From positions 1,922,001 to 1,986,000 of the forward strand of contig NZ_FQZX01000001.1 in assembly GCF_900142175.1 (NCBI RefSeq): DNA of 64,000 bases. The letters are read 5' to 3'. The position numbers were made by a program, and so were the translations under genes. The notes beneath the pieces were generated by a model that made no database searches, was not told the origin of the DNA, and saw only the letters and a list, made by a program, of their open reading frames with translations. Positions 1,503 through 27,671 of this stretch are shown here, piece after piece (the first letter of the stretch is position 1; the number at the start of each line of letters is the position of its first letter). The DNA is from Maribacter aquivivus (GTDB taxonomy: Bacteria; Bacteroidota; Bacteroidia; Flavobacteriales; Flavobacteriaceae).

Positions 1503-1564
1503 GGAAATGTACAATTTTTGAACTGATTTGTTCTAAGCTTTAGGTTGTTGAAAACATATTTTTG
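1503..1564 (+). promoter_or_regulatory. Promoter of the DUF1553 operon with tandem boxes
   Basis: A -7 box TATTTTTG (1557-1564) matches the Bacteroidota TAnnTTTG element and ends 27 bases before the ATG at 1591. The proximal box TGATTTGTT (1524-1532) starts exactly 40 bp before the G at 1564. A degenerate copy, GGAAATGTA (1503-1511), lies 21 bp further up. This is the weakest member of the shared-box set, because the distal copy matches only 5 of the 8 fixed positions. Confidence 0.55.
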
Positions 1565-1590
1565 ATAGAATATTTATTTTACAATTTTTT

Positions 1591-4500
1591 ATGACAAAAA
1601 TCAGCAAACAAATAATATTTGGGATTTTAATTATGGTATTATCAGCTTGTGGTGGTCCGGAATTACCTGAATTAGTAGAAATAGCGTATGAAAAACTACC
1701 TGAAAACGTTGATTTCAATCAACATGTCAAGCCTATTTTGTCGGATAAGTGTTATTTGTGTCACGGTCCAGATAAAGGAAATATAAAAGGAGGTTTACAA
1801 CTTCATGAAGCATCATTTGCTTTTGGTGAGTTAAGCGAAAGCCCTGGTAAATTTGCAATAACTCCTGGAAATTTGAAGAAAAGTGAATTCTTTCAGCGTA
1901 TTATGACAGATGATCCAGATTTAATCATGCCGGCACCAAGTTCACATTTAACGCTTACAGAATATGAAAAAGCAGTTTTAATTAAATGGATAGAAGATGG
2001 CGCTGAATATAAAGAGCATTGGGCCTTCTTGAAACCTGAAGAATATAAAATCCCTAAAGTAGATATTAATGATTTGGTCGGAAATGAAATTGATAATTTC
2101 GTTTTAGCAAAACTAAAAGAGGTAAATCTATCGGCTTCTAAAAGAGCTGACAAAGAGGTATTATTACGTAGGGCTTCTTTTGATTTAATTGGTTTGCCGC
2201 CTACACCTGAAGAAATTAATACATTTTTAAAAGATACTTCACCCAACGCGTTCGAAAAACAAATAGATAGGCTCTTGGCCTCATCGCACTTTGGGGAGCA
2301 GATGACTTTAGATTGGATGGATGTTTCTCGTTATGCAGATACACATGGGTATAGTAATGATAAGTACAGAGATACATCGCCGTGGAGAGATTGGGTCATA
2401 AAATCTTTTAACGAAAATATGCCCTATGATGAATTTTTGACTTGGCAATTGGCTGGCGATTTATTTGAAAATCCAACTAGGGAACAAAAACTAGCAACAA
2501 CATTTAATCGTTTACATCCTCAGAATTTAGAGGGTGGTATTATAGATGAAGAATTTAGATCAGAATATGTTGCAGATAGAACAGCAACCGTAAGTCAAGG
2601 TATCTTAGGTTTATCTTATGCCTGTGCAAAATGTCATGATCACAAGTACGATCCTATCTCTCAAAAGAACTATTATGAGATGTATAGTTTTTTCAATAAC
2701 ATAGATGAAACAGGATTGATTCCTTGGGATTTGGCAACCCCTGTACCTGCTATGTTATTACCTACAGAAGAACAAGAGGGAGTTTTGGCCTATTTAGATG
2801 AAATTGTTAAAACAAGTGAGAAAAGGTTATCCAATACCGTACTTACAGAGGGTCAAAAAGCTGAAGAATGGTTGGCTAGTAATGCCTATCAAAAAACACC
2901 TTTAAACGTTAAACCTAACGGTTTAGTAGCTGCATTTAATTTTGATAATCAGAATCTAGTAAATACAATTGGCGGTAATGGTAAAAACCATATTAGAATG
3001 CGCCAAGAGTTTGTAGATGACGAAAAAGCGGTGTTCAAAAAAGGAGTATCTGGAAAAGGTTTGTCGATGGACGGAGATACGTGGCTTGATTTGGATAAGA
3101 TTGGAATTTACAAACGAAACCAACCTTTCAGTATTTCAATACAAGTATTCATTCCAAAAGACCTGGAGACCGGTGTTATATTCCATAAAATGAATAGCTC
3201 TGAACTACATGCTTTCAGAGGCTATCACCTAAAAATAAAAGAGAATAAAATAGAGGCTTTACTAGCTCATGTATATCCTGATAATGCTATTGTTATAGAA
3301 TCTTTAAACGATGTGCCTAAAGAAAAATGGATTCAGTTAACAATGACTTATGATGGGTCTAGTAAGGCAGATGGTATAGCTATTTATCAAGATGGTGAAA
3401 AACTAAAGACCAAAACAACATTCGATAATCTTTATAAAGATATCGTATTTAATGGTTTACAATTGTATGGAGATGAGAGTCCTAAACTAGAACCAGGCTT
3501 AAGAGTAGGTGCTATTTGGAGGGATAAAGGTATTCGGGGTGCCGTAATTGATAATTTATTGGTGTTCAATAAAGAAATCTCTGCGATAGAAGTTTTACAG
3601 ATCAGTAATACTGAGAAACTGAAAGAATTGCAGAAAAAGCCATTTTCTAATTTGAATGACATAGAAAAGCAACAGTTAACACAATACTTTTTAAACACGA
3701 AATCTAAAGAATATGCATCTGTACTTAAAGATGTAGAGCTTAAGCGAGAGGCATTGGTAGATAGTGTTGAAGGTGTTAAACAGATTATGGTAATGAAAGA
3801 GCGTAAGACGCCGCGTCAAGCCTATATTTTGGATCGTGGAAATTATGATTCTCCCACCGATTCGGTTTTTCCTAATGTGCCTGAAGACATTTTACCATGG
3901 AAAAAAGAATGGTCTAAAAATAGATTAGGATTAGCTAAGTGGATAACAGATAAAGACAATCCTTTAACGGCAAGAGTAACGGTAAATAGATATTGGCAAA
4001 ATTTATTTGGTAGAGGATTAGTGCTAAGTTCAGAAGATTTTGGAAATCAAGGTGACTTACCTAGCCATCCTAAACTTTTAGACTGGTTGGCTATTCGTTT
4101 TGTAGACTCGGGTTGGGATGTAAAGGCGTTATTGAAAACCATGATGTTGTCAAGAACATACCAACAGAGTTCGGTTATAAGTGAAGAGCTTCTTGCGGTC
4201 GATGGTGAAAATAAGTGGTTGTCTCGCGGACCATCAACACGTCTTTCTGGTGAAATGCTTAGAGATAATGCTTTATATGCTTCTGGTCTTTTAAATGAAA
4301 AAATTGGAGGGGAGAGCGTAAAACCATATCAACCTGACGGTTTATGGAAAGTGAATGGAGACACTTATGTACAAGATGGGGAAGAAGGTCTATATAGAAG
4401 AAGTATGTATACTATTTGGAAGAGAACGGTACCCAACCCAACTATAGCCACTTTTGATGCTCCCACAAGAGACTTATGTTCTTCAAGAAGACAGAAAACC

Positions 4501-4845
4501 AACACACCGCTACAGGCGCTGGTAATTTTGAATGACCCAACGTATATAGAGGCTTCAAGAGTACTGGGCAAACGAATTTCTGAAGCTACTTCTATTGAGA
4601 CGGGTATTCGTTCAGCATTTATAAAACTGACGGGTAGAGAACCTAATCAACAAGAATTATCATTATTGTTGAACCTACAGAAAGAAGAGTATTCGAAATT
4701 TCAGAAGAACATTGATAAAACAAAGGGCTGGATAAATACAGGTGCTTTTAAATTAAGCGAAGCAGATGACAAAGCCCTTATTGCTGCAAATGCAGTAGTG
4801 GCAAGTACTATTATGAATGCAGATGCCACCATCACAAAAAGATAA
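1591..4845 (+). CDS. DUF1549/DUF1553 haem-binding lipoprotein with LamG insert
   Basis: The protein has 1084 residues. A lipoprotein signal ends at 'MVLSACGG' (Cys ~20). The first CxxCH haem motif, CYLCH at ~residue 54, lies in a planctomycete-type cytochrome (PSCyt1) domain. DUF1549 (PSCyt2) follows at ~residues 170-375, with 'RRASFDLIGLPPTPEEI' and a second CxxCH in 'CAKCHDHKYDP'. Residues ~470-680 look like a LamG/concanavalin fold (repeated 'GLSMDGDTWLDLD', 'WIQLTMTYDG'). DUF1553 makes up the C-terminus ('NPLTARVTVNRYWQNLFGRG'). The biochemical role of this family is not established; c-type haem and a lectin-like insert suggest periplasmic electron transfer on a carbohydrate. It heads an operon with the DUF1501 gene 26 bases downstream, the usual pairing for these two families. 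Confidence 0.9.
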   Translation: MTKISKQIIFGILIMVLSACGGPELPELVEIAYEKLPENVDFNQHVKPILSDKCYLCHGPDKGNIKGGLQLHEASFAFGELSESPGKFAITPGNLKKSEFFQRIMTDDPDLIMPAPSSHLTLTEYEKAVLIKWIEDGAEYKEHWAFLKPEEYKIPKVDINDLVGNEIDNFVLAKLKEVNLSASKRADKEVLLRRASFDLIGLPPTPEEINTFLKDTSPNAFEKQIDRLLASSHFGEQMTLDWMDVSRYADTHGYSNDKYRDTSPWRDWVIKSFNENMPYDEFLTWQLAGDLFENPTREQKLATTFNRLHPQNLEGGIIDEEFRSEYVADRTATVSQGILGLSYACAKCHDHKYDPISQKNYYEMYSFFNNIDETGLIPWDLATPVPAMLLPTEEQEGVLAYLDEIVKTSEKRLSNTVLTEGQKAEEWLASNAYQKTPLNVKPNGLVAAFNFDNQNLVNTIGGNGKNHIRMRQEFVDDEKAVFKKGVSGKGLSMDGDTWLDLDKIGIYKRNQPFSISIQVFIPKDLETGVIFHKMNSSELHAFRGYHLKIKENKIEALLAHVYPDNAIVIESLNDVPKEKWIQLTMTYDGSSKADGIAIYQDGEKLKTKTTFDNLYKDIVFNGLQLYGDESPKLEPGLRVGAIWRDKGIRGAVIDNLLVFNKEISAIEVLQISNTEKLKELQKKPFSNLNDIEKQQLTQYFLNTKSKEYASVLKDVELKREALVDSVEGVKQIMVMKERKTPRQAYILDRGNYDSPTDSVFPNVPEDILPWKKEWSKNRLGLAKWITDKDNPLTARVTVNRYWQNLFGRGLVLSSEDFGNQGDLPSHPKLLDWLAIRFVDSGWDVKALLKTMMLSRTYQQSSVISEELLAVDGENKWLSRGPSTRLSGEMLRDNALYASGLLNEKIGGESVKPYQPDGLWKVNGDTYVQDGEEGLYRRSMYTIWKRTVPNPTIATFDAPTRDLCSSRRQKTNTPLQALVILNDPTYIEASRVLGKRISEATSIETGIRSAFIKLTGREPNQQELSLLLNLQKEEYSKFQKNIDKTKGWINTGAFKLSEADDKALIAANAVVASTIMNADATITKR

Positions 4846-4871
4846 ATTGGTAACCTTATAAGTATAAAACT

Positions 4872-6386
4872 ATGTGTAACGATCATCAACATAAATTAAG
4901 GTCTAATAATAAAGATTTACAAAAACTAGAAAGTCAGCTAGACAGAAGACATTTCTTAAAGAGAACTTCTTTGGGTATTGGAGCTCTTGCTTTAGGTAGT
5001 CTTTTGGGTACAGAAAAATTATTTGCCGGTATTGGAAAGGACAGTGCTCCCGAAGATATTTTAAAGGCATACAATAAGAATAGATTAGGATTGCCACATC
5101 ATTTACCAAAGGCGAAGAGAATCATCTACCTTTTTCAAAGTGGCGGACCATCACAAATGGATCTCTTCGATTACAAGCCAAAACTTTCAGATATGTTCGG
5201 TAAAGAACTACCTGATTCTGTAATGAGCGGTCAACGCTTAACTGGTATGAGCGGTAACCAAAGTACCTTACCTATTGCACCATCAACTTTTAATTTTAAA
5301 CAATATGGAGAGTCAAGAGCTTGGGTAAGTGATGCTATGCCATATTTATCTGAGGTGGTAGACGAATTATGTTTTATAAAGGGTATGCAGACCGATCAAA
5401 TTAATCATACACCAGCAATTACTTTTATGCAAACGGGTAATCAGTTACCGGGCAGACCGTCTATTGGTTCTTGGTTAAGTTATGGTCTTGGTTCTGATAA
5501 TGAAAACCTACCTACATTTATTACGTTGGTTTCTAAAAATGGAAAGGGACAACCGTTAAAAGCTAGTTTGTGGGGTAATGGATTTCTGCCAACAGAACAT
5601 CAAGGGGTGCAGTTTAGATCGGGTAAAGATCCGGTTTTATACCTAAGTGACCCCGAAAATTATGATGGTAATGATCGTAGACATATGTTAGATTATTTAG
5701 GAGATTTAAATAATTTACAACATGATGCTTATGGTGATCCAGAAATTCAGGCTAGAATGTCGCAATATGAAATGGCTTTTAAAATGCAAACTTCGGTACC
5801 TGAAGTTTCAGATTTATCAGATGAGTCAGAAAGTACTTTTGAGATGTACGGCAAAGATAGTAGAGACCCAGGTACTTATGCAGCCAACTGCCTAATGGCA
5901 AGAAAACTTTTAGAAAAAGGCGTAAAATTTGTGCAATTATACCATCAAGGTTGGGATCAGCACAACTACTGCCCAGGTGGGGTTAAAAGTCAATCTAAGA
6001 AAACAGATCAGGCAACAGCGGCTCTAATAAAAGATTTAAAGCAACGTGGTATGCTAGACGACACCTTAGTAGTTTGGGGTGGCGAGTTTGGTAGAACTGT
6101 ATATTCACAAGGGCAATTAACTAAAGAAAATTATGGTCGAGATCACCATCCTAAAGCATTTACCATGTGGATGGCGGGTGCTGGCGTAAAACCTGGTTTC
6201 ACTTTTGGCGAGACTGATGATTTTAGTTATAACGTAGTTAAAGATCCAGTGCATGTGCATGATTTTCATGCTACACTTTTACACCTGTTTGGTGTTGATC
6301 ATGAACGGTTAACGTTTAAACACCAAGGTAGACGCTACCGATTAACCGATGTTCATGGTAACGTAGTTAAAGATTTATTAACCTAA
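4872..6386 (+). CDS. DUF1501 family exported protein
   Basis: The protein has 504 residues. It belongs to the DUF1501 family, which shares the alkaline-phosphatase/sulfatase superfamily fold. A twin-arginine type signal is seen at residues ~25-50 ('RRHFLKRTSLGIGALALGS'). Core motifs include 'RIIYLFQSGGPSQMDLFDYKP' near residue 80, 'HTPAITFMQTGNQLPGRPSIGSWLSYGLG', 'LYHQGWDQH' and the C-terminal 'VVWGGEFGRT...GRDHHPKAFTMWMAGAGVKPG', where the His/Asp residues probably bind metal. DUF1501 genes are nearly always found beside DUF1553 genes, as here. The start at 4872 leaves ~24 residues before the Tat motif, a common arrangement in the family. Function is unknown; a metal-dependent periplasmic enzyme working with the preceding cytochrome is the likely role. 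Confidence 0.9.
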   Translation: MCNDHQHKLRSNNKDLQKLESQLDRRHFLKRTSLGIGALALGSLLGTEKLFAGIGKDSAPEDILKAYNKNRLGLPHHLPKAKRIIYLFQSGGPSQMDLFDYKPKLSDMFGKELPDSVMSGQRLTGMSGNQSTLPIAPSTFNFKQYGESRAWVSDAMPYLSEVVDELCFIKGMQTDQINHTPAITFMQTGNQLPGRPSIGSWLSYGLGSDNENLPTFITLVSKNGKGQPLKASLWGNGFLPTEHQGVQFRSGKDPVLYLSDPENYDGNDRRHMLDYLGDLNNLQHDAYGDPEIQARMSQYEMAFKMQTSVPEVSDLSDESESTFEMYGKDSRDPGTYAANCLMARKLLEKGVKFVQLYHQGWDQHNYCPGGVKSQSKKTDQATAALIKDLKQRGMLDDTLVVWGGEFGRTVYSQGQLTKENYGRDHHPKAFTMWMAGAGVKPGFTFGETDDFSYNVVKDPVHVHDFHATLLHLFGVDHERLTFKHQGRRYRLTDVHGNVVKDLLT

Positions 6387-6404
6387 TAATCAACCAATAC
6401 ACTT

Positions 6405-7511
6405 ATGCCAACCAGAAGAAATTTCATAAAAAAAACCTCCATTGCAGGAGCAGCGTTAACGACTGTGCCTTCCTTTGGGTTCAATATTCTAAAGAAAAAT
6501 AAGCCAGAAGAAATTATCTTAGGTCATGGCGATTATAGATACAAGGTGAATAATAATTGGGCTCAAATAAGTTCGGTTAGAACGCCATTGCTTAACTGTC
6601 ATGAAATGCAAATGGATAGTAAAGGGCGTTTAATTATGATTGGGGATCACCCACAGAACAATGTATTGATTTTTGATAAATCTGGAAAATTATTAGACTA
6701 TTGGGGTACAGCATATCCTGGTGGTCATGGTTTAACTATTTCTAACGAAGGAGGCGAAGATTTTTTGTTCTTGGCAGATTCTGGGTGGTACCTAAATAAA
6801 ACAGGAAGCTGGACCAAGCATAATGGTAGAATTTCAAAAACTACGATGGACGGGAAGGTTCTATTTGATATTGGGCACCCTCAAACTATTGGTGTTTATG
6901 AACCAGGATTAAATTTTTGTCCTACTGAAGTTGCCGTTGGTCCTAATGGTGATATCTATGTTGCAGACGGTTATGGGCAAGATTTTATTCTACAGTATAA
7001 TTATAAAGGCGAGTTTATTCGTAAATGGGGCGGCCATGATAATGAAGATGCAAATTATAATCTTCAAAATGCACATGGTGTAGCAATAGATTACAGAGAA
7101 AAAAATAATCCAATGGTTGTTTGTACTTCTAGAAATGAACAATCGTTTAAGTGGTTTACTTTAGAAGGTAAATATGTTAAGACACTTAAACTACCTAATA
7201 TGCAAGTATGTAGACCTGTCTTTGATGATGTTAATTTATACGCAGGGGTATGCTGGTCTCAACCTAAAGTTGGGAAAACAAATTGGAAAGATCATACTGG
7301 TTTTGTTACCATTTTAGAGAATGACAAAGTAGTTTCTAACCCAGGTGGTACAACTCCAGAATATAAAAACGGTGAATTGCAAAAATCATATCAATTAGAG
7401 AATAAACCTATTCTTCATGGTCATGATGTTTGTGTAGATGAAGATAAAAATTTATACATATGTCAATGGAATGCGAATAAGACAGCACCTATTAAATTAG
7501 AACGCGTTTAA
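6405..7511 (+). CDS. Tat-exported NHL/six-bladed beta-propeller protein
   Basis: The protein has 368 residues and begins with a short Tat signal ('TRRNFIKKTSIAGAALTTVPSFGF'). The body consists of NHL-type propeller repeats ('GPNGDIYVADGYGQDFILQYNYKGEFIRKWGG', cut here, and 'DSKGRLIMIGDHPQNNVLIFD'). The C-terminus repeats 'HGHDVCVDEDKNLYICQWNANKTAP', closing the ring. Propellers of this type include peptidyl-hydroxyglycine lyases and sugar-binding or lactonase-like proteins, but no catalytic set can be assigned. It lies 18 bases after the DUF1501 gene and 21 before the DUF2231 gene, so it is co-transcribed with the cytochrome cassette. A Tat route suggests folding, perhaps with a metal, before export. 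Confidence 0.8.
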   Translation: MPTRRNFIKKTSIAGAALTTVPSFGFNILKKNKPEEIILGHGDYRYKVNNNWAQISSVRTPLLNCHEMQMDSKGRLIMIGDHPQNNVLIFDKSGKLLDYWGTAYPGGHGLTISNEGGEDFLFLADSGWYLNKTGSWTKHNGRISKTTMDGKVLFDIGHPQTIGVYEPGLNFCPTEVAVGPNGDIYVADGYGQDFILQYNYKGEFIRKWGGHDNEDANYNLQNAHGVAIDYREKNNPMVVCTSRNEQSFKWFTLEGKYVKTLKLPNMQVCRPVFDDVNLYAGVCWSQPKVGKTNWKDHTGFVTILENDKVVSNPGGTTPEYKNGELQKSYQLENKPILHGHDVCVDEDKNLYICQWNANKTAPIKLERV

Positions 7512-7532
7512 GGTAATTTTGAAAAATTTATT

Positions 7533-8924
7533 ATGGATAATAGTGTTCCAGATTTTGTATTGTTTTTAGGTAGGTTTCATCCGCTTGTTGTGCATTTGCC
7601 AATTGGTTTTTTATTTTTCGCATTTGTTCTAGAAGTTTTTAGCAGATGGAAAAAAAATCCTGTTTTAACCTCTGGTATTCCTTTAGCCTTATTTTTAGGT
7701 GGACTTAGTGGTGTCGTTGCTTGTATATTAGGGTATATGTTGTCTCTAAGTGGCGATTATGAAGAAGCAGCTTTAGATACCCACTTTTGGTTCGGTATTG
7801 CAACTACCGCAATTGCTTTTTTAGCATGGCTCATACGGATTGAAAAAATAAAAATTTCTAGTTTAAAAAAGCTACAGCCAAATATTGCATTTCTTACGCT
7901 ATTGGTAATACTGTTAAGTGTTACCGGTCATTATGGTGGTAACCTTACCCATGGTAGTGATTATTTGGTGAAATATATGCCTTTTGGCGGTGCAGAAGAA
8001 GAGGAGCTTGTTGCGGTAACTAAGGTAGAAGATGCTGAGGTTTTTGGTCATTTGGTTAATCCTATTTTGCAGAATAAATGTGCAAGCTGCCATAATTCAA
8101 GTAAAAAGAAAGGTGGACTTTCTATTGCTGATAGTGTATCTATCCTTGATGGTGGAAAAAACGGGGAGGTAATAATTGCTGGGGATGCCCTGAATTCTGA
8201 AATGCTAAAAAGAGTATTATTAGACCCGCACGATGATGATTTTATGCCTCCAGAAGGTAAAACACCATTGACCGAAGAAGAGATAGCTATATTAACGTAT
8301 TGGATCGATAATGCGCAAGCGAATTTTAAAACTAAAGTTGCTTCTGTAGAAACTGATGAAATTGTAACGGGTATTGCTAGTACTATGTTAGGGTTGTCAG
8401 CGGGTTCTTCAAGTGGTTCAGAAATACCTATACCGAGTGTGAGTTTAGTTTCAGATGATAAAATAATTGAGCTACAGGCAGAAGGTTTTAGGTTACGTGA
8501 ACTTGCATTTGAATCTGGGTTGTATGAAGCTGTATTAGCGCCAAATTCAAATGAAAATGGTACACCCGATGCGATGTCCAAAAAACTCGAAAAATTACTT
8601 TCTATAAAAGAAAATATTCTTTGGTTGTCATTAGAGAATAATCAAATAAAAGATGATCATGTAAAATTGATTTCCCAATTCCCTAATATTCAGAAATTGA
8701 AATTGAACGATAATCCGTTATCAGATAATGCAGTTGAGCAATTGATTAAATTAGAAAATTTGACAAGTGTAAATCTGTTAGGGACTGAAATAACCTCTAA
8801 AAGTATCCCTTCTTTTTCTGAAATGAAGCAGCTTAAATATGCCTATGTTTGGAAAACGAATATTAAAAAAGAGGATATAGTAAAAGTATTGATCAATGAT
8901 TATCCTAAAATTATAATCGATTAA
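7533..8924 (+). CDS. DUF2231 membrane protein with c-type cytochrome and leucine-rich C-terminus
   Basis: The protein has 463 residues. The first ~150 form four hydrophobic helices with 'LGRFHPLVVHLPIGFLFFAF' (DUF2231, conserved His residues) and 'TGHYGGNLTHGSDYLVKYMP', a common haem-b/quinone-type membrane anchor. A PSCyt1-like domain with one CxxCH (CASCH, ~residue 184) and 'DDDFMPPEGKTPLTEEEIAILTYWI' follows. The C-terminal third has leucine-rich repeats ('LSLENNQIKDDHVKLISQFPNIQKLKLNDNPLSDNAV' in pieces). Membrane helices with a haem domain suggest an electron outlet from the DUF1553/DUF1501 proteins into the membrane. This is an inference from architecture and operon position; the family has no established activity. 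Confidence 0.85.
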   Translation: MDNSVPDFVLFLGRFHPLVVHLPIGFLFFAFVLEVFSRWKKNPVLTSGIPLALFLGGLSGVVACILGYMLSLSGDYEEAALDTHFWFGIATTAIAFLAWLIRIEKIKISSLKKLQPNIAFLTLLVILLSVTGHYGGNLTHGSDYLVKYMPFGGAEEEELVAVTKVEDAEVFGHLVNPILQNKCASCHNSSKKKGGLSIADSVSILDGGKNGEVIIAGDALNSEMLKRVLLDPHDDDFMPPEGKTPLTEEEIAILTYWIDNAQANFKTKVASVETDEIVTGIASTMLGLSAGSSSGSEIPIPSVSLVSDDKIIELQAEGFRLRELAFESGLYEAVLAPNSNENGTPDAMSKKLEKLLSIKENILWLSLENNQIKDDHVKLISQFPNIQKLKLNDNPLSDNAVEQLIKLENLTSVNLLGTEITSKSIPSFSEMKQLKYAYVWKTNIKKEDIVKVLINDYPKIIID

Positions 8925-8949
8925 AAATTAAATAGGAGCACTAAATCGC

Positions 8950-10440
8950 ATGAAGAAAGGTATATTTTTTAGTAGTATCATAATTTTAATTTCGCTCGGT
9001 TGTTCTTCGCAAAAAACAATTGTCGATTCAGAAATTAATACGCAAAAATATACTCCAGATTGGGAATCTTTACAGCAATATGAAGTGCCGGAATGGTATA
9101 AAGATTTAAAATTCGGAATCTATTTTCATTGGGGTCCGTACGCTGTTCCTGCTTATGAAAATGAATGGTATTCTCGGTGGATGTATGTAGATGGGCACCA
9201 AATTAATAAACATCATAAAGAAACGTACGGGCCTTTAGATAAATTTGGCTACAAAGATTTTATACCCATGTTTAAGGCAGAAGAGTTTGATGCCGATGTT
9301 TGGGCAGATTTATTCGTAAAAGCTGGGGCTCAGTTTGCAGGACCCATTGCCGAACATGCCGATGGTTTTGCCATGTGGGATAGTCAACTTACCAAATGGG
9401 ATGCAAAAGATATGGGACCCAAAATAGATGTAGTCGGCGCTATGGAAAAAGCCGTAAAATCTCGCGGACTTAAATTTATCACTACCTATCATCGTCATTG
9501 GCTATACGCATGGTACCCAACTTGGGATGAAAATACAGATGCGTCCAACCCATTGTTTGAAGGTCTTTATGGTCCGAAAGTTCCAGAGGGTACATTTGTT
9601 ATGGCAAATAAACCTACAAATCCCTTACCTGATGAAAAATTTAACCAAGATTGGTTAGACAGACTTACAGAATTAACTACTAAGTATGATCCTGATATTG
9701 TTTGGTTCGATAACAAAATGGATATCATAGGTGAAGATTATAGAAAGCAATTTTTAGCCGACTTTTATAATAGAGGCCTTGAAAAAGGAAAAGACGTAGT
9801 CGTTACCTATAAGTTTACCGATTTAGCGGTGGGCTCTGCAGTTTTAGATCTAGAACGCTCTAGAATGAGGGAGAAAAAAGAGTTTACTTGGTTAACTGAC
9901 GATTCTATAGATTGGAAAGCATGGAGCAATATTGAAAATCCTGAATATAAATCTACCAATAGGCTAATAGATTTTTTAGTTGATGTGGTTAGTAAAAATG
10001 GTGCGGTACTTTTAAATATTACGCCGACCGCTGAAGGTAAAATACCAACGGAAGTTGAAGAACGTTTGTTGCAAATGGGGGAGTGGTTGCGTATTAATGG
10101 AGAAGCTATTTATGGAACCAGACCTTGGAAAATTTATGGAGAAGGACCTGCAGAGGTTATTGAAGGTCATTTAAGTGAGCACAAAAATGCTGATAATACG
10201 GCAGCGGATATTAGATTTACTACCAAAGACAATTTATTATATGCTTTTGTTTTAGACCTGCCAGAAGTAGAAATACGTATAAAAGCACTTGGTAAACACG
10301 AAAGAAAAATAAAAAGTGTTCAACTTTTAGGTAATCCTGAGAAAATATCTTGGGATCAAAATGATACTGAACTAATTATTCAACCAACTAAAAATCAACT
10401 TGGTGATTATGCTTTTGCATATAAGATTGAGTTTTATTAA
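8950..10440 (+). CDS. GH29 alpha-L-fucosidase/alpha-L-galactosidase-like lipoprotein (copy 1 of 4)
   Basis: The protein has 496 residues with lipobox 'ISLGCSS'. GH29 is a retaining family; the TIM barrel carries 'YKDLKFGIYFHWGPYAVPAYENEWYSRWMY' (in parts) near the N-terminus. The catalytic nucleophile is the Asp of 'DIVWFDNKMD' (~residue 254). A C-terminal beta-sandwich follows 'GEWLRINGEAIYGTRPW'. GH29 enzymes remove alpha-L-fucose, and a GH29 of the Bacteroides plebeius porphyran locus has been shown to be an alpha-L-galactosidase, which suits a red-algal galactan. The residue after the nucleophile is Asn here, unlike the other copies (Phe, Trp, Ser), suggesting different specificity. It begins 25 bases after the DUF2231 gene and so ends the cytochrome operon. 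Confidence 0.93.
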   Translation: MKKGIFFSSIIILISLGCSSQKTIVDSEINTQKYTPDWESLQQYEVPEWYKDLKFGIYFHWGPYAVPAYENEWYSRWMYVDGHQINKHHKETYGPLDKFGYKDFIPMFKAEEFDADVWADLFVKAGAQFAGPIAEHADGFAMWDSQLTKWDAKDMGPKIDVVGAMEKAVKSRGLKFITTYHRHWLYAWYPTWDENTDASNPLFEGLYGPKVPEGTFVMANKPTNPLPDEKFNQDWLDRLTELTTKYDPDIVWFDNKMDIIGEDYRKQFLADFYNRGLEKGKDVVVTYKFTDLAVGSAVLDLERSRMREKKEFTWLTDDSIDWKAWSNIENPEYKSTNRLIDFLVDVVSKNGAVLLNITPTAEGKIPTEVEERLLQMGEWLRINGEAIYGTRPWKIYGEGPAEVIEGHLSEHKNADNTAADIRFTTKDNLLYAFVLDLPEVEIRIKALGKHERKIKSVQLLGNPEKISWDQNDTELIIQPTKNQLGDYAFAYKIEFY

Positions 10441-10446
10441 ATGATG

Positions 10447-10536
10447 TTAGAAATTTGGTTGTGGTGATTTTTTTACTCTCACGTCCTTTATTTGAAACAT
10501 AGAAACTAATAGTAAAACTAGTATTATTGTTTTCAT
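10447..10536 (-). other. Tiny signal-peptide-like ORF, probably a gene remnant
   Basis: An open frame of 29 codons begins at an ATG (10536) and reads MKTIILVLLLVSMFQIKDVR, then nine more residues to a stop. It looks like the export signal of a secreted protein with nothing after it. The surrounding 297-base gap between the GH29 and GH16 genes otherwise holds only the GH16 promoter. It could be the head of a lost secreted-protein gene, or chance. Low confidence. Confidence 0.2.
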
Positions 10537-10662
10537 CACATAATTTTTACAACTATCATTCCATTTAACCCGAATCCCCAAATATTTGTTCTTCCAGTAA
10601 TATCTTATAGAGTTGTTACTATACGGTACTACCAGAATGTTCTTAAATTCTATGAGGTAAAA

Positions 10663-10724
10663 TCATATGTTGCAGTTTAAAATACATTTGAAAAGTATAC
10701 TTGTTTAGGCGCCGATTAAATTTG
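10663..10724 (+). promoter_or_regulatory. Promoter of the HYR-GH16 gene with tandem boxes
   Basis: The -7 box TAAATTTG (10717-10724) is a perfect TAnnTTTG. The distal box TCATATGTT (10663-10671) is a perfect copy. The proximal copy is ACATTTGAA (10684-10692), 21 bp downstream of the distal one and exactly 40 bp before the G at 10724. The short distance to the ATG at 10738 leaves a very brief leader, which would favour a downstream start at 10765. Confidence 0.65.
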
Positions 10725-10737
10725 TGAAAAAAGATAT

Positions 10738-18506: not shown

Positions 18507-18517
18507 AATAGTTTTTT

Positions 18518-21500: not shown

Positions 21501-21820
21501 GCAGATACATCTTCAGATAAACTTACATTTATGGTTGATTTTCCGTTTACCGCGATTTCTTTTTTTGTATACCCAATGTAAGTAAAGACCAAAATATCAT
21601 CGCTGTCGCCATTAATGGTATAAAGACCGTCAAAATCAGTAACTGTACCGTTAGTAGTACCTTTGATAACTACACTAACGCCTGGTAATGGGCCATCTTC
21701 TGCAGTTACCGTTCCTTGAATTTTACTCGATTGAGCATTTATGGTTCCCGTGCCCAATAGCAATAGAAATGCTATCAGTAAGGTTCCTGATTTCCGTTTA
21801 AGCATGATTTTCATTTTCAT
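18518..21820 (-). CDS. susC: SusC/RagA-family TonB-dependent outer-membrane transporter
   Basis: The protein has 1100 residues. A signal peptide ending 'TGTINAQ' precedes a carboxypeptidase-D-like N-terminal domain ('GTVTAEDGPLPGVSVVIKGT'). The Ton box region is 'DEVVVIGYG', followed by the plug ('VRVRGGTSINASSDPLYVIDG' in parts and 'IESIEVLKDASATAIYGSRGANGVI' in parts). The 22-strand barrel ends with the terminal aromatic 'FRVGLNIGF'. It has no STN domain, so signalling to an anti-sigma factor is not expected. It imports oligosaccharides bound by SusD, using TonB energy. It is the first gene of a susC-susD-PKD operon, driven by a promoter with tandem boxes and divergent from the sulfatase at 22361. 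Confidence 0.96.
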   Translation of the reverse strand: MKMKIMLKRKSGTLLIAFLLLLGTGTINAQSSKIQGTVTAEDGPLPGVSVVIKGTTNGTVTDFDGLYTINGDSDDILVFTYIGYTKKEIAVNGKSTINVSLSEDVSALDEVVVIGYGSARRKDLTGSIVSIKADELNRIKPVSFEGGIAGKAAGVQIVASEGGPDAGFKVRVRGGTSINASSDPLYVIDGFALQGDNQSTGVGLGNSTTSPLSSIDPSTIESIEVLKDASATAIYGSRGANGVIIITTKGGKKGRSTLNFETYTSVGTLARKIDLLKGQEFVDWWNEYFPWDPNNTTQPQILAYRDEFGNDINLNDPRVILTDWQDEIARTAITSNYNLSMTGGSETNSYAASFSYLNSEGVIKTTDFERYNASLRLNQNISKKLRAGVNLNMGFTQSTGVVTSASSNANGQSGIITNSVLFSPVQGLTRYDDAEYDEDGRILSLRSGDVINPNRLLEGNTNRSLRFNSFGNVYLEYQIADGLKFTSSLRGNFGSSKGQAYFSEKFGYGQSVGGRAFTNNSTNVGITTEQNLSFNKTYGKHRLSATAVYEQQETSFEFTNSSSTGFDLPGVNLNNLATAQETLATRSGFVDNSLRSVLGRVQYDFDDRYVLNLSARSDGSSRFAEGYKWGFFPSAGVAWKVSNENFLKDNQTISNLKLKASYGETGNTAIGSYRSLPQTATASSIFNGNQLAIGVAIGNLVVDGLTWETTSQFDGGISLGLFKNRISIDAEYYKKETTNLLLDKPVPGTSGFETVFTNVGTLVNQGLEFVVNTVNVDNENFSWNSSFNISFNDNEVTDLGGATEFFTRAIGDNQIPIDYVTRVGEPVGSIYGIENDGLYQYSDFVDFDGLTDAEAAQKMAQDASDTGLPLYALNYQLKDGVVVSSGRTDTATYRPGLPKLKDQITVDTDGDGIPDSSDGIVNSDDRTIIGRTVPKHFGGFTNNFTYKNLDLSVLTSWSYGNDVYNKNLVRGTSQNIPFFNKYGSIRDRWTPLNTDTNVPIINGFGDAGVSGNAYSDYVEDGSFLRLSNITIGYKLPSKVTQSLGVKTFRLYAAADNLYVWTNYSGYDPEVSVGNNQLTPGLDSDSYPRARTFRVGLNIGF

Positions 21821-21849
21821 AAGTTGTGAATCTAATTAAGTTAGTTCAG

Positions 21850-21930
21850 CAAATATTTAATTATTCAGCTTATCGTGGGATAACAAATGTTTTTAAAAGA
21901 GTAACAAATGTGTTTATCTAAAATAAATGT
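21850..21930 (-). promoter_or_regulatory. susC promoter with three tandem boxes
   Basis: Read on the minus strand, a near-consensus -7 box AATATTTG ends at base 21850, 30 bases before the susC start. The proximal box ACATTTGTT begins at 21890, exactly 40 bp before that G. An identical ACATTTGTT begins at 21911 (21 bp spacing), and a third, ACATTTATT, begins at 21930. The same geometry is found at five other promoters in the window. This is one side of the 540-base divergent region 21821-22360, which holds no gene. Confidence 0.75.
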
Positions 21931-22221
21931 TAAAATGTACGAACTCTTTAAAATCTAATAGGTTTTATTTTTAATTCATTAGTAATAACTATTAAATATT
22001 ATCAGATGTGTTTATGATGCTTTTTCTTAAGCTAAGATTTATTTAAATGAAGAGTATGCATTTAAAAGTACACTGAGAAAGATGTTCTTGCAGTTTGTGA
22101 AATTGGAATTGTTTTATAGATAAAATGGATAGTTTTTGTTAATTACTTCATTACTAATAAAATATAGATTTCTGTATTCAGAATAATAAGCCTCCCCTTC
22201 AATAAAAGACTTTTTAAAAAT

Positions 22222-22303
22222 TCATATGTACTTGGCTTTAATCATATGTGTTGTTCATAAAATCATATGTTATTAGGTATTCTTAAAAAATAGCTAACTT
22301 TTG
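22222..22303 (+). promoter_or_regulatory. Sulfatase promoter with three tandem boxes
   Basis: Three copies, TCATATGTA (22222-22230), TCATATGTG (22242-22250) and TCATATGTT (22263-22271), lie 20 and 21 bp apart on one face of the helix. A -7-like element TAACTTTTG ends at 22303, exactly 40 bp after the start of the proximal box. The sulfatase ATG is at 22361. This is the clearest member of the box family. Confidence 0.8.
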
Positions 22304-22360
22304 TATAGCGCTTACAGTGCTTTATTTTATTCAAATTCAGACTTTATAAATTCTAGTTAA

Positions 22361-24022
22361 ATGTTTAAAAAACTCTTTTTCCTTTTTCTTGTAGTCGTAT
22401 GTTTTTCATCTTGTGAAAAGGTTGCTAAAGAACCTATAGTTACCAAAAAACCAAATATCATTTATATAATGGCCGATGATCATACAACACAGGCTTTTGG
22501 TATTTATGGTAGTAGATTGGCGAGTTTAAACCCTACTCCGGCATTAGATCAATTGGCAAATGAGGGGATGATTTTTGACAACTGCTTTGTTACCAATGCT
22601 ATTTGTACACCTAGTAGAGCTACCATTATTACAGGGCAATATAGCCAAGCAAACGGTGTGTTGGATCTAGAAGGTCATATACCACCAGAAAGGCAATATC
22701 TGCCTCAAGAAATGAAGAAATTAGGGTATGAATCTGCTATTGTGGGTAAATGGCATTTAGAAAATGAACCTGCTTCATTTGATTATTATGCAGTTTTACC
22801 TGGTCAAGGTAAATATCATAATCCAGAGTTTATTGTACAAGGTGAAAACGAATGGCCAGAAAATAGAATACAAACAACGGGACACTCTAGTGATAATATT
22901 ACTGATTTAACCATAGAATGGCTAAAGGACAAACGAAATAAAGACAAGCCATTTTTCTTAATGCATCATTATAAAGCGCCACATGATGACTTTGAGTATG
23001 CGCCCAGATATAAAGATTATTTAGAAGACGAGTATATACCAGAGCCAGTAAGTTTATATGTAAATGGTAATAACGGATCTATTGCAACAAGAGGAAATAA
23101 TGATTCACTGTTAAATGTAATTGGCTCATCTGTGTCTAAACGAAATACAATAAGAGGTATGGGCATGCGTATCTGGAGTGATGAGTATACTAAGATTTCT
23201 AATCCAGATTTTGATGCTTCTATCAAAACTAAATTAGACTTAAGCGATAATGGGTATACACATGCAACCTATCAAGAATATCTAAAAAGATATTTGCGTT
23301 GCGTAAAAGGTGTTGACGATAACATTGCCCGATTAATTAAATTCTTAAAGGAAGAAGGACTTTATGATAATACCATTATAGTATACACCGGTGATCAAGG
23401 TTTTATGCTTGGAGAGCATGATTACATTGATAAAAGATGGATGTATGAAGAATCTATGCGTATGCCATTCTTTGTTCGTTACCCAGAAAAAATTAAAGCT
23501 GGATCAAGAACTGATGCTATTATCAATAACACCGATTTTGCACCTACTTTAATTGATATGGCTGGTGGTACAGCACCTGAACAAATGCAGGGACATAGTT
23601 TTAAAACTATTCTAGAAACGGGAGAGGAGCCAGAGGGCTGGCAACAATCTACCTACTATAGATATTGGATGCATATGGCGCATGCGCATGCTAACCCAGC
23701 GCATTTTGGTATTCGTACAAAACAATATAAACTAATCTTCTTCTATGGCAAATATTGGGTAGATACAAAAGACCCGAAGGCAACGTGGAATAAAAAAAGT
23801 TGGGGTAATAGGTTTGAGATGGATACACCTGTTGCGTGGGAGTTTTATGATTTAGGTAAGGATTCTCAAGAAATGAACAATGCATATAATAACCCTGTTT
23901 ACAAAGATGTAATTGCAGATTTAAAAAATCAACTTTTACAAAAGCGAAAGAGTTTAAATGAAGAGGATGGCGATAAGTATCCACATATTCAAAAGGTAAT
24001 AGATGAGCACTGGAATGATTAA
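22361..24022 (+). CDS. S1 formylglycine sulfatase, lipoprotein
   Basis: The protein has 553 residues. The lipobox is 'VVCFSSCEK'. The metal-binding start is 'KPNIIYIMADDHTTQAFG'. The sulfatase signature C-T-P-S-R (Cys ~82) is converted to formylglycine by a maturase not in this window. Further S1 landmarks are 'GKWHLENEPASFDYYAVLPGQG', 'HHYKAPHDD', 'VYTGDQGFMLGEHDYIDKRWMYEESMRMP' (in parts) and 'DFAPTLIDMAG'. The 'GKWHL...VLPGQG' layout recalls exo-acting 6-O-sulfatases of the S1_11 type, but this is only a resemblance. It would remove sulfate from galactan oligosaccharides in the periplasm or at a membrane surface. It is first in a plus-strand group and divergent from susC. Confidence 0.92.
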   Translation: MFKKLFFLFLVVVCFSSCEKVAKEPIVTKKPNIIYIMADDHTTQAFGIYGSRLASLNPTPALDQLANEGMIFDNCFVTNAICTPSRATIITGQYSQANGVLDLEGHIPPERQYLPQEMKKLGYESAIVGKWHLENEPASFDYYAVLPGQGKYHNPEFIVQGENEWPENRIQTTGHSSDNITDLTIEWLKDKRNKDKPFFLMHHYKAPHDDFEYAPRYKDYLEDEYIPEPVSLYVNGNNGSIATRGNNDSLLNVIGSSVSKRNTIRGMGMRIWSDEYTKISNPDFDASIKTKLDLSDNGYTHATYQEYLKRYLRCVKGVDDNIARLIKFLKEEGLYDNTIIVYTGDQGFMLGEHDYIDKRWMYEESMRMPFFVRYPEKIKAGSRTDAIINNTDFAPTLIDMAGGTAPEQMQGHSFKTILETGEEPEGWQQSTYYRYWMHMAHAHANPAHFGIRTKQYKLIFFYGKYWVDTKDPKATWNKKSWGNRFEMDTPVAWEFYDLGKDSQEMNNAYNNPVYKDVIADLKNQLLQKRKSLNEEDGDKYPHIQKVIDEHWND

Positions 24023-24060
24023 ACGGTACTTCTTTTAAACTAATTATAATTCAATTTTGT

Positions 24061-25677
24061 ATGAAAGTCATTTTTAGAACAGTAGTGTTTTTATGTATTA
24101 TCGTATCAACTAATGGCTTTGCCCAATTAAAAAAGCAGAACTATAGCGCAAAAGCTATCTCTGTTCAAAAATGGGAAGTTCTGGATATTAACTTTCAAGC
24201 TAAATCAAAAAATACATCTCCTTTTACGGCTGAATTTTCGGCCGTTTTCACTCATGAAAATGGTAAGCAGCAGAAGGTGCCTGGTTTTTTTAATGGAAAA
24301 AATGATTGGATTCTTAGGTTCTCAAGCGCTGCAGAAGGTAATTATACATATATAACTTCTTCAGAAATAAAGGCATTAAACAATAAAAGGGGTAAGGTTA
24401 CGGTAACGGCTGCCCAGATCAATAACCACGGTGGTATTGTCGTTAACGATGATGATCCCCAACATTTTTATTATGAAGATGGTACGCCATATTTTTTATT
24501 GGCATTTGAGTGCGATTGGTTGTATGCCTTAGATTACCATAATGAAAAAGGCTTGCCAAAAACCGAACATTTATTAAACCTTATTTCAGAAAATGGCTTT
24601 AACCAGATTGTAATGAACGTCTTTTCTTATGATGTAAGTTGGCAAAAGGATGAAAAGCTAAAACAATACCCTGAGCATGAATTTGGAGGACCAGATGATA
24701 TTTTTCCTTTTTTAGGTAACAATGAGAATCCAGATTACTCTGCTTTGAACCCTATTTTCTTTCAAAGATTAGATCGTACTATAAGTATGATGCATGACAA
24801 ACGTATTGCCTCTCACCTAATGATTTATGTTTGGAATAAATTGGTCGCTTGGCCAGATATGAATAGTGATGCCGATAATATGTATTTCGATTATGTGGTA
24901 AAACGTTATCAGGCTTTCCCGAATATGGTTTGGGACATTTCTAAAGAGGCGCTTTATTATGGTAGGGCAGATGAAGATTATATTCATGGTAGAATTGAAA
25001 GAATACGCGAAAACGACCAGTTTAATAGGTTGGTTTCTGTTCACGATTTTAAATACTGCTCAAATTTTCCAGAAAAAGTAGATTTTATTTCCACTCAAAA
25101 TTGGTCGCATAATATCTATGATAAAATGCTTGATGCCAAGACTAAGTTTAAAGACAAACCTATTTTTAATATTGAACATGGTGGTTATGAGGAGTCCCCA
25201 TATACTGTCTTTACTGGAGATTATATAAATGCCGAAACTTGCTTACGAAGAAATTATATGTGTTTGTTTGCAGGTGTTTACACTACTTATTATTGGCAAG
25301 GCGCTTCATGGAATGTTATCATTTATAACCCTTTTGAACAGCCAGAAGATTTCATAAAACCAAAGTTTGAATATTTTGAACATATGCAAAAGTTGTTTAA
25401 AGAATTCGACTTTGCCAAGTTAAAACCAACTCCTTGGCAAAATGGCAGCGCATACAATCTAACCGATAACAATGAAACTGTTCTGTTGTATATGCACAAA
25501 GAAAATTACGGTATTGATGCGGCTTTTCTTAAAAAAGAAAGCTCAAAAAGGTCATTACAATGGTTCAATACATTAACGGGAGAATTTAGCCAAACTATAG
25601 GATTGCCAAATTCTGGAAAATTAATTTCACCATGGCAAGGAAAAGCCGATGCAGTATTGATTTCCAGGCTTAAATAG
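24061..25677 (+). CDS. DUF5060/DUF4038-type TIM-barrel putative glycoside hydrolase
   Basis: The protein has 538 residues with signal peptide 'VSTNGFAQ'. The N-terminal ~95 residues form a beta-sandwich of DUF5060 type ('VQKWEVLDINFQA', 'TAEFSAVFTHENGKQQKVPGFFNG', 'WILRFSSAAEGNYTY' in parts). The barrel begins at 'DDDPQHFYYEDGTPYFLLAFECDWLYALD', the pattern of DUF4038 barrels. Acidic candidates include 'MVWDISKEALYYG' and 'PIFNIEHGGYEESPY', either of which could supply catalytic Glu. A short C-terminal beta domain closes the protein. The family is related to apiosidase-like enzymes, but its substrate in red-algal loci is unknown to me. It lies 38 bases after the sulfatase and is probably co-transcribed. 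Confidence 0.78.
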   Translation: MKVIFRTVVFLCIIVSTNGFAQLKKQNYSAKAISVQKWEVLDINFQAKSKNTSPFTAEFSAVFTHENGKQQKVPGFFNGKNDWILRFSSAAEGNYTYITSSEIKALNNKRGKVTVTAAQINNHGGIVVNDDDPQHFYYEDGTPYFLLAFECDWLYALDYHNEKGLPKTEHLLNLISENGFNQIVMNVFSYDVSWQKDEKLKQYPEHEFGGPDDIFPFLGNNENPDYSALNPIFFQRLDRTISMMHDKRIASHLMIYVWNKLVAWPDMNSDADNMYFDYVVKRYQAFPNMVWDISKEALYYGRADEDYIHGRIERIRENDQFNRLVSVHDFKYCSNFPEKVDFISTQNWSHNIYDKMLDAKTKFKDKPIFNIEHGGYEESPYTVFTGDYINAETCLRRNYMCLFAGVYTTYYWQGASWNVIIYNPFEQPEDFIKPKFEYFEHMQKLFKEFDFAKLKPTPWQNGSAYNLTDNNETVLLYMHKENYGIDAAFLKKESSKRSLQWFNTLTGEFSQTIGLPNSGKLISPWQGKADAVLISRLK

Positions 25678-25698
25678 GAATAAAAAGGAACATATTAA

Positions 25699-25760
25699 TC
25701 ATTTGGTCTATTATAAAAGACATACGTTTTAATCGTTTCAATGAGATAATTAGAATTTAG
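25699..25760 (+). promoter_or_regulatory. GH29 promoter with tandem boxes
   Basis: The distal box is TCATTTGGT (25699-25707) and the proximal box ACATACGTT (25720-25728), 21 bp apart. The G at 25760 ends a poor -7-like sequence TAGAATTTAG, 40 bp after the proximal box start. The ATG follows at 25798. The boxes are good but the -7 element is degenerate, so the promoter is less certain than its neighbours. Confidence 0.5.
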
Positions 25761-25797
25761 CGATATCAAAACCAATGAAACTAATAAGACATTTTAC

Positions 25798-27345
25798 ATG
25801 AATTTTAAAAGATATAAGTTATTCGCCTTTTTGATTTGCACCACCGTACTTTTTTCTTGTGGCGATCAAAAAGAAAAGAAAGAAGTTGTTGAGCAAACGA
25901 AACCTGTTTATGAAGCAAATTGGGAATCTATAAAAGCTAATTACAAAGATCCTGCATGGTTTAATAAACAAAAATTCGGAATTTTTATTCATTGGGGTGC
26001 TTATAGTGTACCTGCTTATAGTTCTGAGTGGTATCCTAGAAAAATGTATATGGATTCGGCAACCTTCTCTGCACAATTAGAACTAGGACAAAAAGGACCT
26101 TCAGATGTATTTTTACATCACAAAGAAAAATGGGGCGATCAGAAAGAGTTCGGTTATAAAGATTTTATTCCAATGTTTAAAGGAGAAAACTTCGATGCAA
26201 ACGAATGGATCGATATTTTCGAGAAAGCTGGGGCTAAGTATGTAATACCTGTAGCAGAACATCATGATGGTTTTGCAATGTACAAGTCTAATGTAACACG
26301 ATGGAATTCTGTAGACATGGGTCCTAAGAAAGATATTTTAGGAGAATTGTTCAAAGCAGGTAGAGAAAAAGGTATGATTATGGGGGCTTCTTCACATTTC
26401 GCCTTCAACTGGTCATTCTATAATAAGAAAGATAAATTCGATACTACAGATCCTAAAAATTCAGACCTGTATTCTACAAAAGGTAAAGACTTAAATGAAC
26501 CGGTATCTGATGAGTTCAAAGAATTATGGTGGGCGAGAACAAAAGATATTATCGATAACTATCAACCAGATATTTTATGGTTCGATTTTTACCTAGATAT
26601 ACCAGATTTTGCCGATCAAAGACCTAAGCTAGCGGCTTATTATTATAATAAGGGTATTGAATGGGATAAAGAAGTGGTCTTACAAGATAAAAATTTCTCT
26701 CATGAAGCATTTCCAGAAGGTACGGTAGTATACGATTTAGAAAGAGGTAAGCTGCCAGGTATTCGAAAATTGCCATGGCAAACAGATACATCAATAGGTA
26801 AAAACTCTTGGAGTCATGTTACAAATTGGGAGTCTAAAACAGCCAATGAAATTGTAGATGATTTAGTAGATATTGTAAGTAAAAATGGAAACCTATTATT
26901 AAATGTGGGTCCCAAATCTGACGGTACTATTCCAGAAGATCAGCAGGCTATATTATTTGAAATAGGAGATTGGCTAAAGATTAATGGCGATGCCATTTAT
27001 GATACCACATATTGGAAAACTTTTGGGGAAGGCCCAACTGAGGTAAAAAAAGGACATCATTCTGAAGGGGATAATGAAGGTTTGTCTTCAAAAGATATCA
27101 GGTTTACCATAAAAGATAATAAGTTGTTTGCCATTGTTCTAGATTGGCCAGAAGACGGTATGGTAAATATTGAGTCTTTAGCTAAAGATTCTGAATATGT
27201 AAAAGATTTAGAAATTGCCAATGCAAAAGTATTGGGTAGTACAGATAAAATTAAATGGAGTCAAGAGACTGACGGTTTAAAGGTTACTATGCCTAAAGAA
27301 AAACCAGGTGACTTTGCATATGTTATTCAGTTCGATTTACGATAG
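25798..27345 (+). CDS. GH29 alpha-L-fucosidase/alpha-L-galactosidase-like lipoprotein (copy 2 of 4)
   Basis: The protein has 515 residues with lipobox 'VLFSCGD'. The GH29 barrel begins 'FNKQKFGIFIHWGAYSVPAYSSEWYPRKMY' (in parts). Conserved 'VAEHHDGFAMYKSNVTRWN' and 'FAFNWSFYNKKDKFD' line the active site. The nucleophile Asp is in 'ILWFDFYLDI' (~residue 263). The barrel ends near 'GDWLKINGDAIYDTTYWKTFGEGP' and is followed by a C-terminal sandwich. Unlike copy 1 it has an insert around residues 90-115 ('SAQLELGQKGPSDVFLHHKEK'), which would alter the entrance of the pocket. It has its own boxed promoter and is followed by a strong terminator, so it is probably monocistronic. Specificity for L-fucose or L-galactose cannot be separated by eye. 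Confidence 0.93.
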   Translation: MNFKRYKLFAFLICTTVLFSCGDQKEKKEVVEQTKPVYEANWESIKANYKDPAWFNKQKFGIFIHWGAYSVPAYSSEWYPRKMYMDSATFSAQLELGQKGPSDVFLHHKEKWGDQKEFGYKDFIPMFKGENFDANEWIDIFEKAGAKYVIPVAEHHDGFAMYKSNVTRWNSVDMGPKKDILGELFKAGREKGMIMGASSHFAFNWSFYNKKDKFDTTDPKNSDLYSTKGKDLNEPVSDEFKELWWARTKDIIDNYQPDILWFDFYLDIPDFADQRPKLAAYYYNKGIEWDKEVVLQDKNFSHEAFPEGTVVYDLERGKLPGIRKLPWQTDTSIGKNSWSHVTNWESKTANEIVDDLVDIVSKNGNLLLNVGPKSDGTIPEDQQAILFEIGDWLKINGDAIYDTTYWKTFGEGPTEVKKGHHSEGDNEGLSSKDIRFTIKDNKLFAIVLDWPEDGMVNIESLAKDSEYVKDLEIANAKVLGSTDKIKWSQETDGLKVTMPKEKPGDFAYVIQFDLR

Positions 27346-27369
27346 TTTGTTAGTTTAATTTAATTGTTC

Positions 27370-27406
27370 GCCAAGACTTTTGTTGTTAGAGGTCTTGGCT
27401 TTTTTT
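27370..27406 (+). terminator. Intrinsic terminator after GH29 copy 2
   Basis: The arms GCCAAGAC (27370-27377) and GTCTTGGC (27392-27399) form a perfect 8-bp stem followed by a run of seven T (27400-27406), 25 bases after the GH29 stop. The rest of the 367-base gap to 27712 holds the next sulfatase promoter and no gene that I can see. Confidence 0.9.
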
Positions 27407-27609
27407 ATGCAAACTTTTAATATTAAGATATAAGTAAATACCTATTTTCATCTTCATTTTGTTTCGGTTAAGTAAAATGATATAGTTAGTGAAATGCCCT
27501 AATACCCCTATTGTTCAAGTAGTGAAAGTAGGCAATATTATTAATCGAAAGTTGCTTATAGCAATAATTGCACTGTTCTGCAAAATACGCTGATTTTTAG
27601 CCCCTAAAA

Positions 27610-27671
27610 TCATCCGTTCTAGTTTCAAAATCATACGTTATTAACTAAAGGGGGCTATTGAATTATTTTTG
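27610..27671 (+). promoter_or_regulatory. Sulfatase promoter with tandem boxes
   Basis: Boxes TCATCCGTT (27610-27618) and TCATACGTT (27631-27639) are 21 bp apart, each preceded by AAAA. A perfect -7 box TATTTTTG (27664-27671) ends exactly 40 bp after the start of the proximal box. The ATG is at 27713. Confidence 0.75.

Follow-up and report, generated by a model that had tools for sequence, protein, structure and literature searches.

One-component activators of the AraC/XylS type combine an AraC-type DNA-binding domain with direct half-sites two helical turns apart, the proximal one lying beside RNA polymerase, and in AraC itself the half-sites I1 and I2 are 21 bp apart. Here we analyse a 64-kb stretch of the genome of Maribacter aquivivus (the window; positions above 64000 are counted on past its end), in which pairs of the box WCATNYGTT, set 21 bp apart, precede the genes of a glycoside hydrolase (GH) and sulfatase cluster. 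Comparisons of DNA from many genomes suggest that these paired boxes are very probably the operator of one hybrid two-component system regulator (HTCS), whose gene lies at 73538-77827, and that this protein would regulate eight promoters and probably a ninth. Unlike in the AraC/XylS activators, the likely reader of the boxes is a membrane HTCS, and a free AraC protein encoded at 485 seems to have a target of its own.

The spacing itself has been described before, as the motifs predicted for 16 Bacteroides HTCSs, without exception direct repeats, have a mean distance of 21 bp; it was proposed that HTCS dimers lie on one DNA face, two turns apart (Ravcheev et al., 2013; PMC3878776). The predicted operators of Bacteroides thetaiotaomicron HTCSs resemble those described here in consisting of two direct conserved sites about 21 bp apart, in lying near the operons of regulated polysaccharide utilization loci (PULs) and in having been recognized by comparative genomics; they differ in belonging to Bacteroides and not to marine Flavobacteriaceae, the likeness is one of spacing, and the part of the source used here gives no fixed distance to the -7 element such as is seen at this locus (PMC3878776). 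The carrageenan regulon of Zobellia galactanivorans, under CgrA, is likewise a case of marine flavobacterial galactan catabolism under an AraC-type activator, but CgrA is a one-component AraC protein and no operator boxes are given in the portion of that source drawn on here (PMC5698469). Response-regulator parts of HTCSs bind DNA in a phosphorylation-dependent manner (PMC11253607), and in a flavobacterium the element TAnnTTTG lies at -12 to -5 (PMC9723704). A literature search by title returned, among the matches listed, nothing on flavobacterial HTCS operators; the Bacteroides work did turn up; a study of a Vibrio XylR-type regulator (PMC12125979) was set aside, and a further source gives no operator in the part used here (PMC5613140).

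Paired boxes in the window and in the genome

Five promoters of the window, named here after the first base of the proximal box (10684, 21890 on the minus strand, 22263, 25720 and 27631), carry WCATNYGTT pairs at exactly 21 bp with 0-2 mismatches (Table 1). An earlier sequence-only reading of the window had counted six, including that of gene 1591, and had put the final G of the -7 element at exactly +40 from the start of the proximal box. This distance was recovered at 6/6 promoters and the tandem boxes at five; at 1591 the proximal box (1524) has 1 mismatch, and the distal stretch at 1503, GGAAATGTA, departs from WCATNYGTT at 4/9 positions and belongs to another motif. The -7 element TAnnTTTG, as then worded, is exact at 10724, 27671 and 1564 and deviates at 21850, 22303 and 25760, the last reading GAATTTAG. 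The occasional spacings of 19-20 bp do exist, at 21930 (19 bp, minus strand, susC) and 22222 (20 bp, sulfatase 22361), where they mark possible third boxes upstream of the pairs and not the main pairs; a weak third box also stands at 27589, 21 bp upstream of the pair before sulfatase 27713. With at most 1 mismatch, the window holds four pairs at 21 bp, two at 19 bp, one at 33 bp and none at the other 23 spacings between 10 and 35 bp, and both 19-bp pairs sit at promoters already named, one being the third box at 21930 and the second the 22242 pair read out of register.

A genome-wide search for box, box and TTTG with at most 2 mismatches found 10 places in the 4.58-Mb genome, 7 of them within one 67-kb stretch around the cluster. 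Five of these seven are promoters already named and two are new, beyond the window; with at most 1 mismatch all of the genome's matches (4/4) fall in the same stretch, and with at most 3 the pattern occurs 54 times, against 23 for its reversed form. Box pairs at 21 bp with an AAAA tract (at most 2 mismatches) gave 11 places, 6 of them at C1:1943882-2000000, with 5 for the reversed control. A loose pattern with 3 mismatches was dropped as being of no use alone (950 places against 839 for the reversed control). The binomial probabilities of 1.7e-11 (7/10 places in the region) and 1e-5 (2/5 beside the HTCS gene) are descriptive, having been devised after the matches were seen and with 5/7 of the places defining the pattern.

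The region was also scored with a matrix trained on the loci of other species only, from intergenic pairs within 400 bp of the start of an open reading frame (ORF), 29 of 36 sites being kept after near-identical ones were removed. In the 124 kb around the window eight sites score above 20, namely 73515-, 21890-, 22263, 77992, 27631, 10684, 25720 and 66206- (the suffix marks the minus strand), the five window promoters reaching 27.8-35.6; below them the scores drop to 11.9, and no site in 20 simulated copies of the region exceeds 16.8. The 1524 site is absent from the top 24 in the same 124 kb. Site 66206- (L064:2206, minus strand), with a score of 20.3, is new and lies past the window, immediately ahead of a GH16 gene (L064:1278-2141). 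The set is thus larger than the six transcription units first proposed, with three promoters past the window and a weaker ninth before 42158, whose site at 42270 has counterparts scoring 19.7 and 21.5 at a similar place in 2/5 orthologues of the 42158 gene.

An HTCS gene beside the cluster and its orthologues

No hybrid two-component regulator is encoded in the window, as the sequence-only reading had noted, among the 39/47 ORFs of at least 100 aa that were scanned, the other 8 overlapping longer ORFs; one lies 9.5 kb past the window end, on the minus strand (G000 C1:1995538-1999827). Its protein of 1429 aa has the Pfam order Reg_prop, Y_Y_Y, HisKA, HATPase, Response_reg and HTH_18, its nearest solved chains include HTCS sensor and receiver-HTH parts, and the gene is linked to PUL genes (susCD, GHs, sulfatases). 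It is flanked by two box-box places, C1:1995535 (minus) and C1:1999972 (plus), which were first found with the pattern built on the window sites. One flanking site precedes a sulfatase/GH2 gene run and the other a run of alcohol dehydrogenase, altronate/galactarate-type dehydratase, mannitol-dehydrogenase-like, amidohydrolase and short-chain dehydrogenase genes. The DNA-binding regulators among the scanned window ORFs are the AraC protein at 485 and a LacI-family protein at 42372; the product of 59926 has a cNMP-binding domain.

Relatives of this HTCS were found at 60 loci; the analysis kept the 47 of 50-91% identity, the 13 others, distant or partial, having been dropped before any count was made. 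By their titles the 47 belong to Flavobacteriaceae (Maribacter, Cellulophaga, Algibacter, Zobellia, Polaribacter, Aquimarina and others). With at most 1 mismatch these loci hold 45 box pairs at 21 bp, against 1 for the reversed control, and 0-11 at each of the other 32 spacings (10-42 bp) save 42 bp, with 39. The 42-bp peak was considered as a triple-box signal and rejected: of the 14 pairs listed (39 in total), 8 share a single position within the HTCS gene and were taken as coding sequence. Forty-one of the 45 pairs at 21 bp are intergenic, in 28/47 loci, some being one place read on both strands. The phase recurs as well, with a TTTG ending at exactly +40 in 20/44 distinct 21-bp pairs and in at most 2 at any other offset, against 0/15 pairs at the control spacings 18, 20, 23 and 24; with at most 2 mismatches allowed, the figures are 30/164 at 21 bp vs 0/279 at the control spacings. 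A seedless count of repeated 7-mers in the intergenic DNA of the HTCS loci gave 342 at spacing 21 vs 88-231 at 54 others, with CATTTGT and CATATGT as top words; an AAACCTT array contributes some of the count. The words AAACCTT and TTAAACC recur at 21 bp in some intergenic pieces of these loci as a separate tandem array.

The presence of the boxes was then compared with that of the two regulators in 149 genomes, a close relative being a full-length match of at least 50% identity for the HTCS and at least 45% for the AraC protein, and its absence being judged on 4 (HTCS) or 16 (AraC) candidates scored per genome. Exact box pairs occur in 9/12 genomes that have a close HTCS, at 20 places against 3 for the reversed control, and in 39/137 genomes without one, at 50 places against 34 (in 16 genomes) for that control; the association, with a Fisher p of 0.002, is noisy and was tallied by hand. 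Among genomes with a close HTCS in which no close AraC was found, 3/4 have exact pairs (4, 3, 2 and 0 places), and where AraC is present and no close HTCS was found the number is 0/2. An orthologue of the GH29 gene 25798 is present in 12/12 genomes with a close HTCS.

Conservation before orthologous genes

Conservation of boxes and spacing in relatives had been named as a point in favour of an operator, and it was observed before two of the presumed target genes; HTCS status is established for part of the genomes concerned. For GH29 25798, a matrix site of at least 10.6 lies within 211 bp of the matched start in 20/22 other loci (at least 69% identity; 19 genomes), with p at its floor of 0.005. 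The two loci without a site are G184 (-8.3) and G050 (5.1, p 0.045). GH29 loci of 49-55% identity reach 10.6 in 0/7 cases (best 2.7, p 0.02). Similarly, 2/2 SusC orthologues of 65% and 63% identity have a site (32.0, and 23.7 without TTTG at +40), and 0/3 below 63% identity do. For sulfatase 22361, a weaker divergent pair with 3 mismatches is found in G061.

Several observations weigh against assigning the boxes to this one HTCS. The box seed was derived from the window and carries a bias, and only 28/47 HTCS loci hold an intergenic pair with at most 1 mismatch. Near relatives (Maribacter, with an HTCS 91% identical) supply likely counterparts of 73515 and 77992 to the matrix training, so these two sites are not independent of it, and the GH29 orthologue test is not fully independent either, as GH29 promoters are probably among the training sites. 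The G184 locus, with a GH29 of 72% identity, has no site, which would weigh here if G184 carries a close HTCS. Exact pairs are lacking in 3/12 genomes with a close HTCS, and where none was found, within the candidates scored, pairs still exceed the control (50 vs 34 places), an excess that possibly consists of repeats inside genes or of operators of other HTCSs. The M. aquivivus genome itself has at least two more HTCS matches, and another HTCS may read the boxes.

A putative separate site for the AraC protein

The promoter of gene 1591 falls outside this set. Before orthologues of 1591 a different repeat is conserved across many genera, CGGAAATGTACA-N9-CTGATTTRT, 21 bp from half-site to half-site, and the M. 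aquivivus genome has its sole exact place at 1502-1531, with one other at 3 mismatches and 1 for the reversed control. With at most 4 mismatches, the repeat is present in 15/18 loci (own included) where an AraC orthologue lies no more than 1,500 bp upstream, and in 0/12 without such a gene; some of the same loci had served to derive the motif by eye, though the association of motif and AraC gene was not built in, and one locus, L224, was scored AraC-negative solely because its AraC gene is more than 1,500 bp away. Counted from the start of the proximal half-site, a TTTG ends at 41 or 42 bp in 15/15 of these sites, equal to the phase of the HTCS boxes or one off. The run 1591-10440 is thus a probable target of the AraC protein and not of the HTCS. 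Because the AraC gene tracks its own site at the 1591 promoter, with a similar core and phase, the earlier grouping of six promoters fused two operators alike in core and geometry.

Of the loci with a 1591 orthologue of at least 67% identity, 11/11 have an AraC relative upstream of it, and two adjacent AraC copies stand beside that orthologue in three genera (G017:C7, G019:C12 and G084:C44). The genes at 1591-8924, a planctomycete-type cytochrome gene and DUF1549, DUF1553 and DUF1501 genes, form part of a flavobacterial run beside the GH29 gene 8950.

The likeness of the two sites allows for a scheme in which both regulators act, AraC at 1591 and the HTCS at its eight or nine promoters with boxes, and cross-bind through the alike half-site cores (ATNTGT). 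The two motifs do share register and phase at 1524, and both genes belong to one cluster; the distal half-sites, however, differ (CGGAAATGT vs WCATNYGTT), and the AraC site ranks outside the HTCS matrix top 24, which leaves this scheme rather unlikely.

Less probable still is the candidate named by the sequence-only reading, with the AraC protein at 485 activating all six promoters alone. This protein carries an AraC-type domain, sits in the cluster and has a 21-bp repeat for a site as well, similar in core and almost equal in -7 phase, but box pairs do not track its orthologues. Around 8 of 9 AraC orthologues (20-kb stretches; L190 was excluded as it also holds an HTCS orthologue) there is no excess at 21 bp, with 2 pairs of at most 1 mismatch vs 0-3 at spacings 15-20 and 22-27; the AraC site is a distinct, conserved one; the boxes occur in G134, G061 and G072, where no close AraC was found; and the GH29 promoter scores only 5.1 in G050, where GH29 and AraC are present and a close HTCS was not found. 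What survives of the proposal of one activator on direct repeats is the geometry, since boxes in other species again stand 21 bp apart and keep the +40 phase; the protein chosen for it finds no support.

The reading of the boxes as an operator also has to be set against a promoter feature (e.g., an UP-like or -33 element) or chance AT-rich repeats, for which the AT-rich DNA and the fixed elements of Bacteroidota promoters could speak; with the boxes concentrated at this cluster, simulated regions scoring far lower, and the boxes retained by close orthologues while distant paralogues showed none, this is highly improbable. The LacI-family protein at 42372, although located in the cluster, is a very improbable reader, as LacI operators are generally inverted and not direct repeats. 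The LacI-family gene (42372-43382) is divergent from a sodium:solute symporter gene.

Table 1. Box pairs, AraC-type repeat and associated genes in the M. aquivivus window.
Feature	Position	Strand	Elements and context
AraC-family one-component regulator	485..1354	-	divergent from 1591; Pfam HTH_18, HTH_AraC
21-bp direct repeat, putative AraC (485) site	1502..1531	+	CGGAAATGTACA-N9-CTGATTTGT; differs from box pairs
-7 element of 1591 promoter	1557..1564	+	TATTTTTG
Operon-like run	1591..10440	+	PSCyt1/DUF1549/DUF1553, DUF1501, NHL, DUF2231, GH29; divergent from AraC gene
Boxes 10663, 10684	10663..10724	+	-7 TAAATTTG ending 10724; before GH16 gene 10738; matrix 30.2; 2 mismatches in genome scan
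Boxes 21911, 21890	21850..21911	-	-7 AATATTTG; before susC 21820 (susCD-PKD operon); matrix 35.6; 0 mismatches
Boxes 22242, 22263	22242..22303	+	-7 AACTTTTG; before sulfatase 22361 (and 24061); matrix 35.4; 1 mismatch
Boxes 25699, 25720	25699..25760	+	-7 GAATTTAG; before GH29 25798; matrix 27.8; 2 mismatches
Boxes 27610, 27631	27610..27671	+	-7 TATTTTTG; before sulfatase 27713 and GH29 29222; matrix 33.1; 0 mismatches
Weaker candidate boxes 42291, 42270	42230..42291	-	-7 TATATTTA; before 42158-to-30946 sulfatase/GH genes; matrix 11.7, alone within background

Proposed mechanism and significance

The arrangement of the operator suggests how the HTCS may act, and we infer its binding, phosphorylation, activation and ligand as follows. 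The protein would sense a periplasmic saccharide, most likely a porphyran fragment, and phosphorylate its own receiver domain, upon which two C-terminal AraC-type domains would occupy the two direct half-sites 21 bp, or two turns, apart. Counted back from the last base of the -7 element, the proximal half-site starts at 40 bp, near -45 if that element spans -12 to -5 as TAnnTTTG does in a flavobacterium (PMC9723704), and from there the bound HTCS could touch RNA polymerase and activate transcription. Within the window the HTCS would control GH16 10738, susCD, sulfatase 22361, GH29 25798, the sulfatase-GH29 pair from 27713 and probably the genes from 42158; its targets past the window end would be a further GH16 gene, the sulfatase/GH2 operon and an operon of sugar-acid catabolism. 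Among solved relatives, porphyranase B ranks first for GH16 10738; for GH29 25798 an entry named alpha-L-fucosidase ranks first and an exo-alpha-L-galactosidase second. Because of these relatives and the many sulfatases, the substrate of the cluster is probably porphyran.

The spacing class is already known; this member of it and its proposed assignment to a regulator are new here. Two AraC-type operators that look alike by eye can now be told apart, and a testable regulon with its regulator becomes available for a probable porphyran cluster of marine Flavobacteriaceae, with operators defined at the level of single bases and conserved over many genera. The fixed phase to the -7 element also provides a search rule for other HTCS regulons. 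Finally, the two regulators, HTCS and AraC, appear to use different half-sites in one geometry (21 bp, and an equal distance to the -7 element within 1 bp), and it is conceivable, if still doubtful, that this may be a general rule for AraC-type activation at Bacteroidota sigma-A promoters; if it were true, the operators of uncharacterised HTCSs would be findable from geometry alone.

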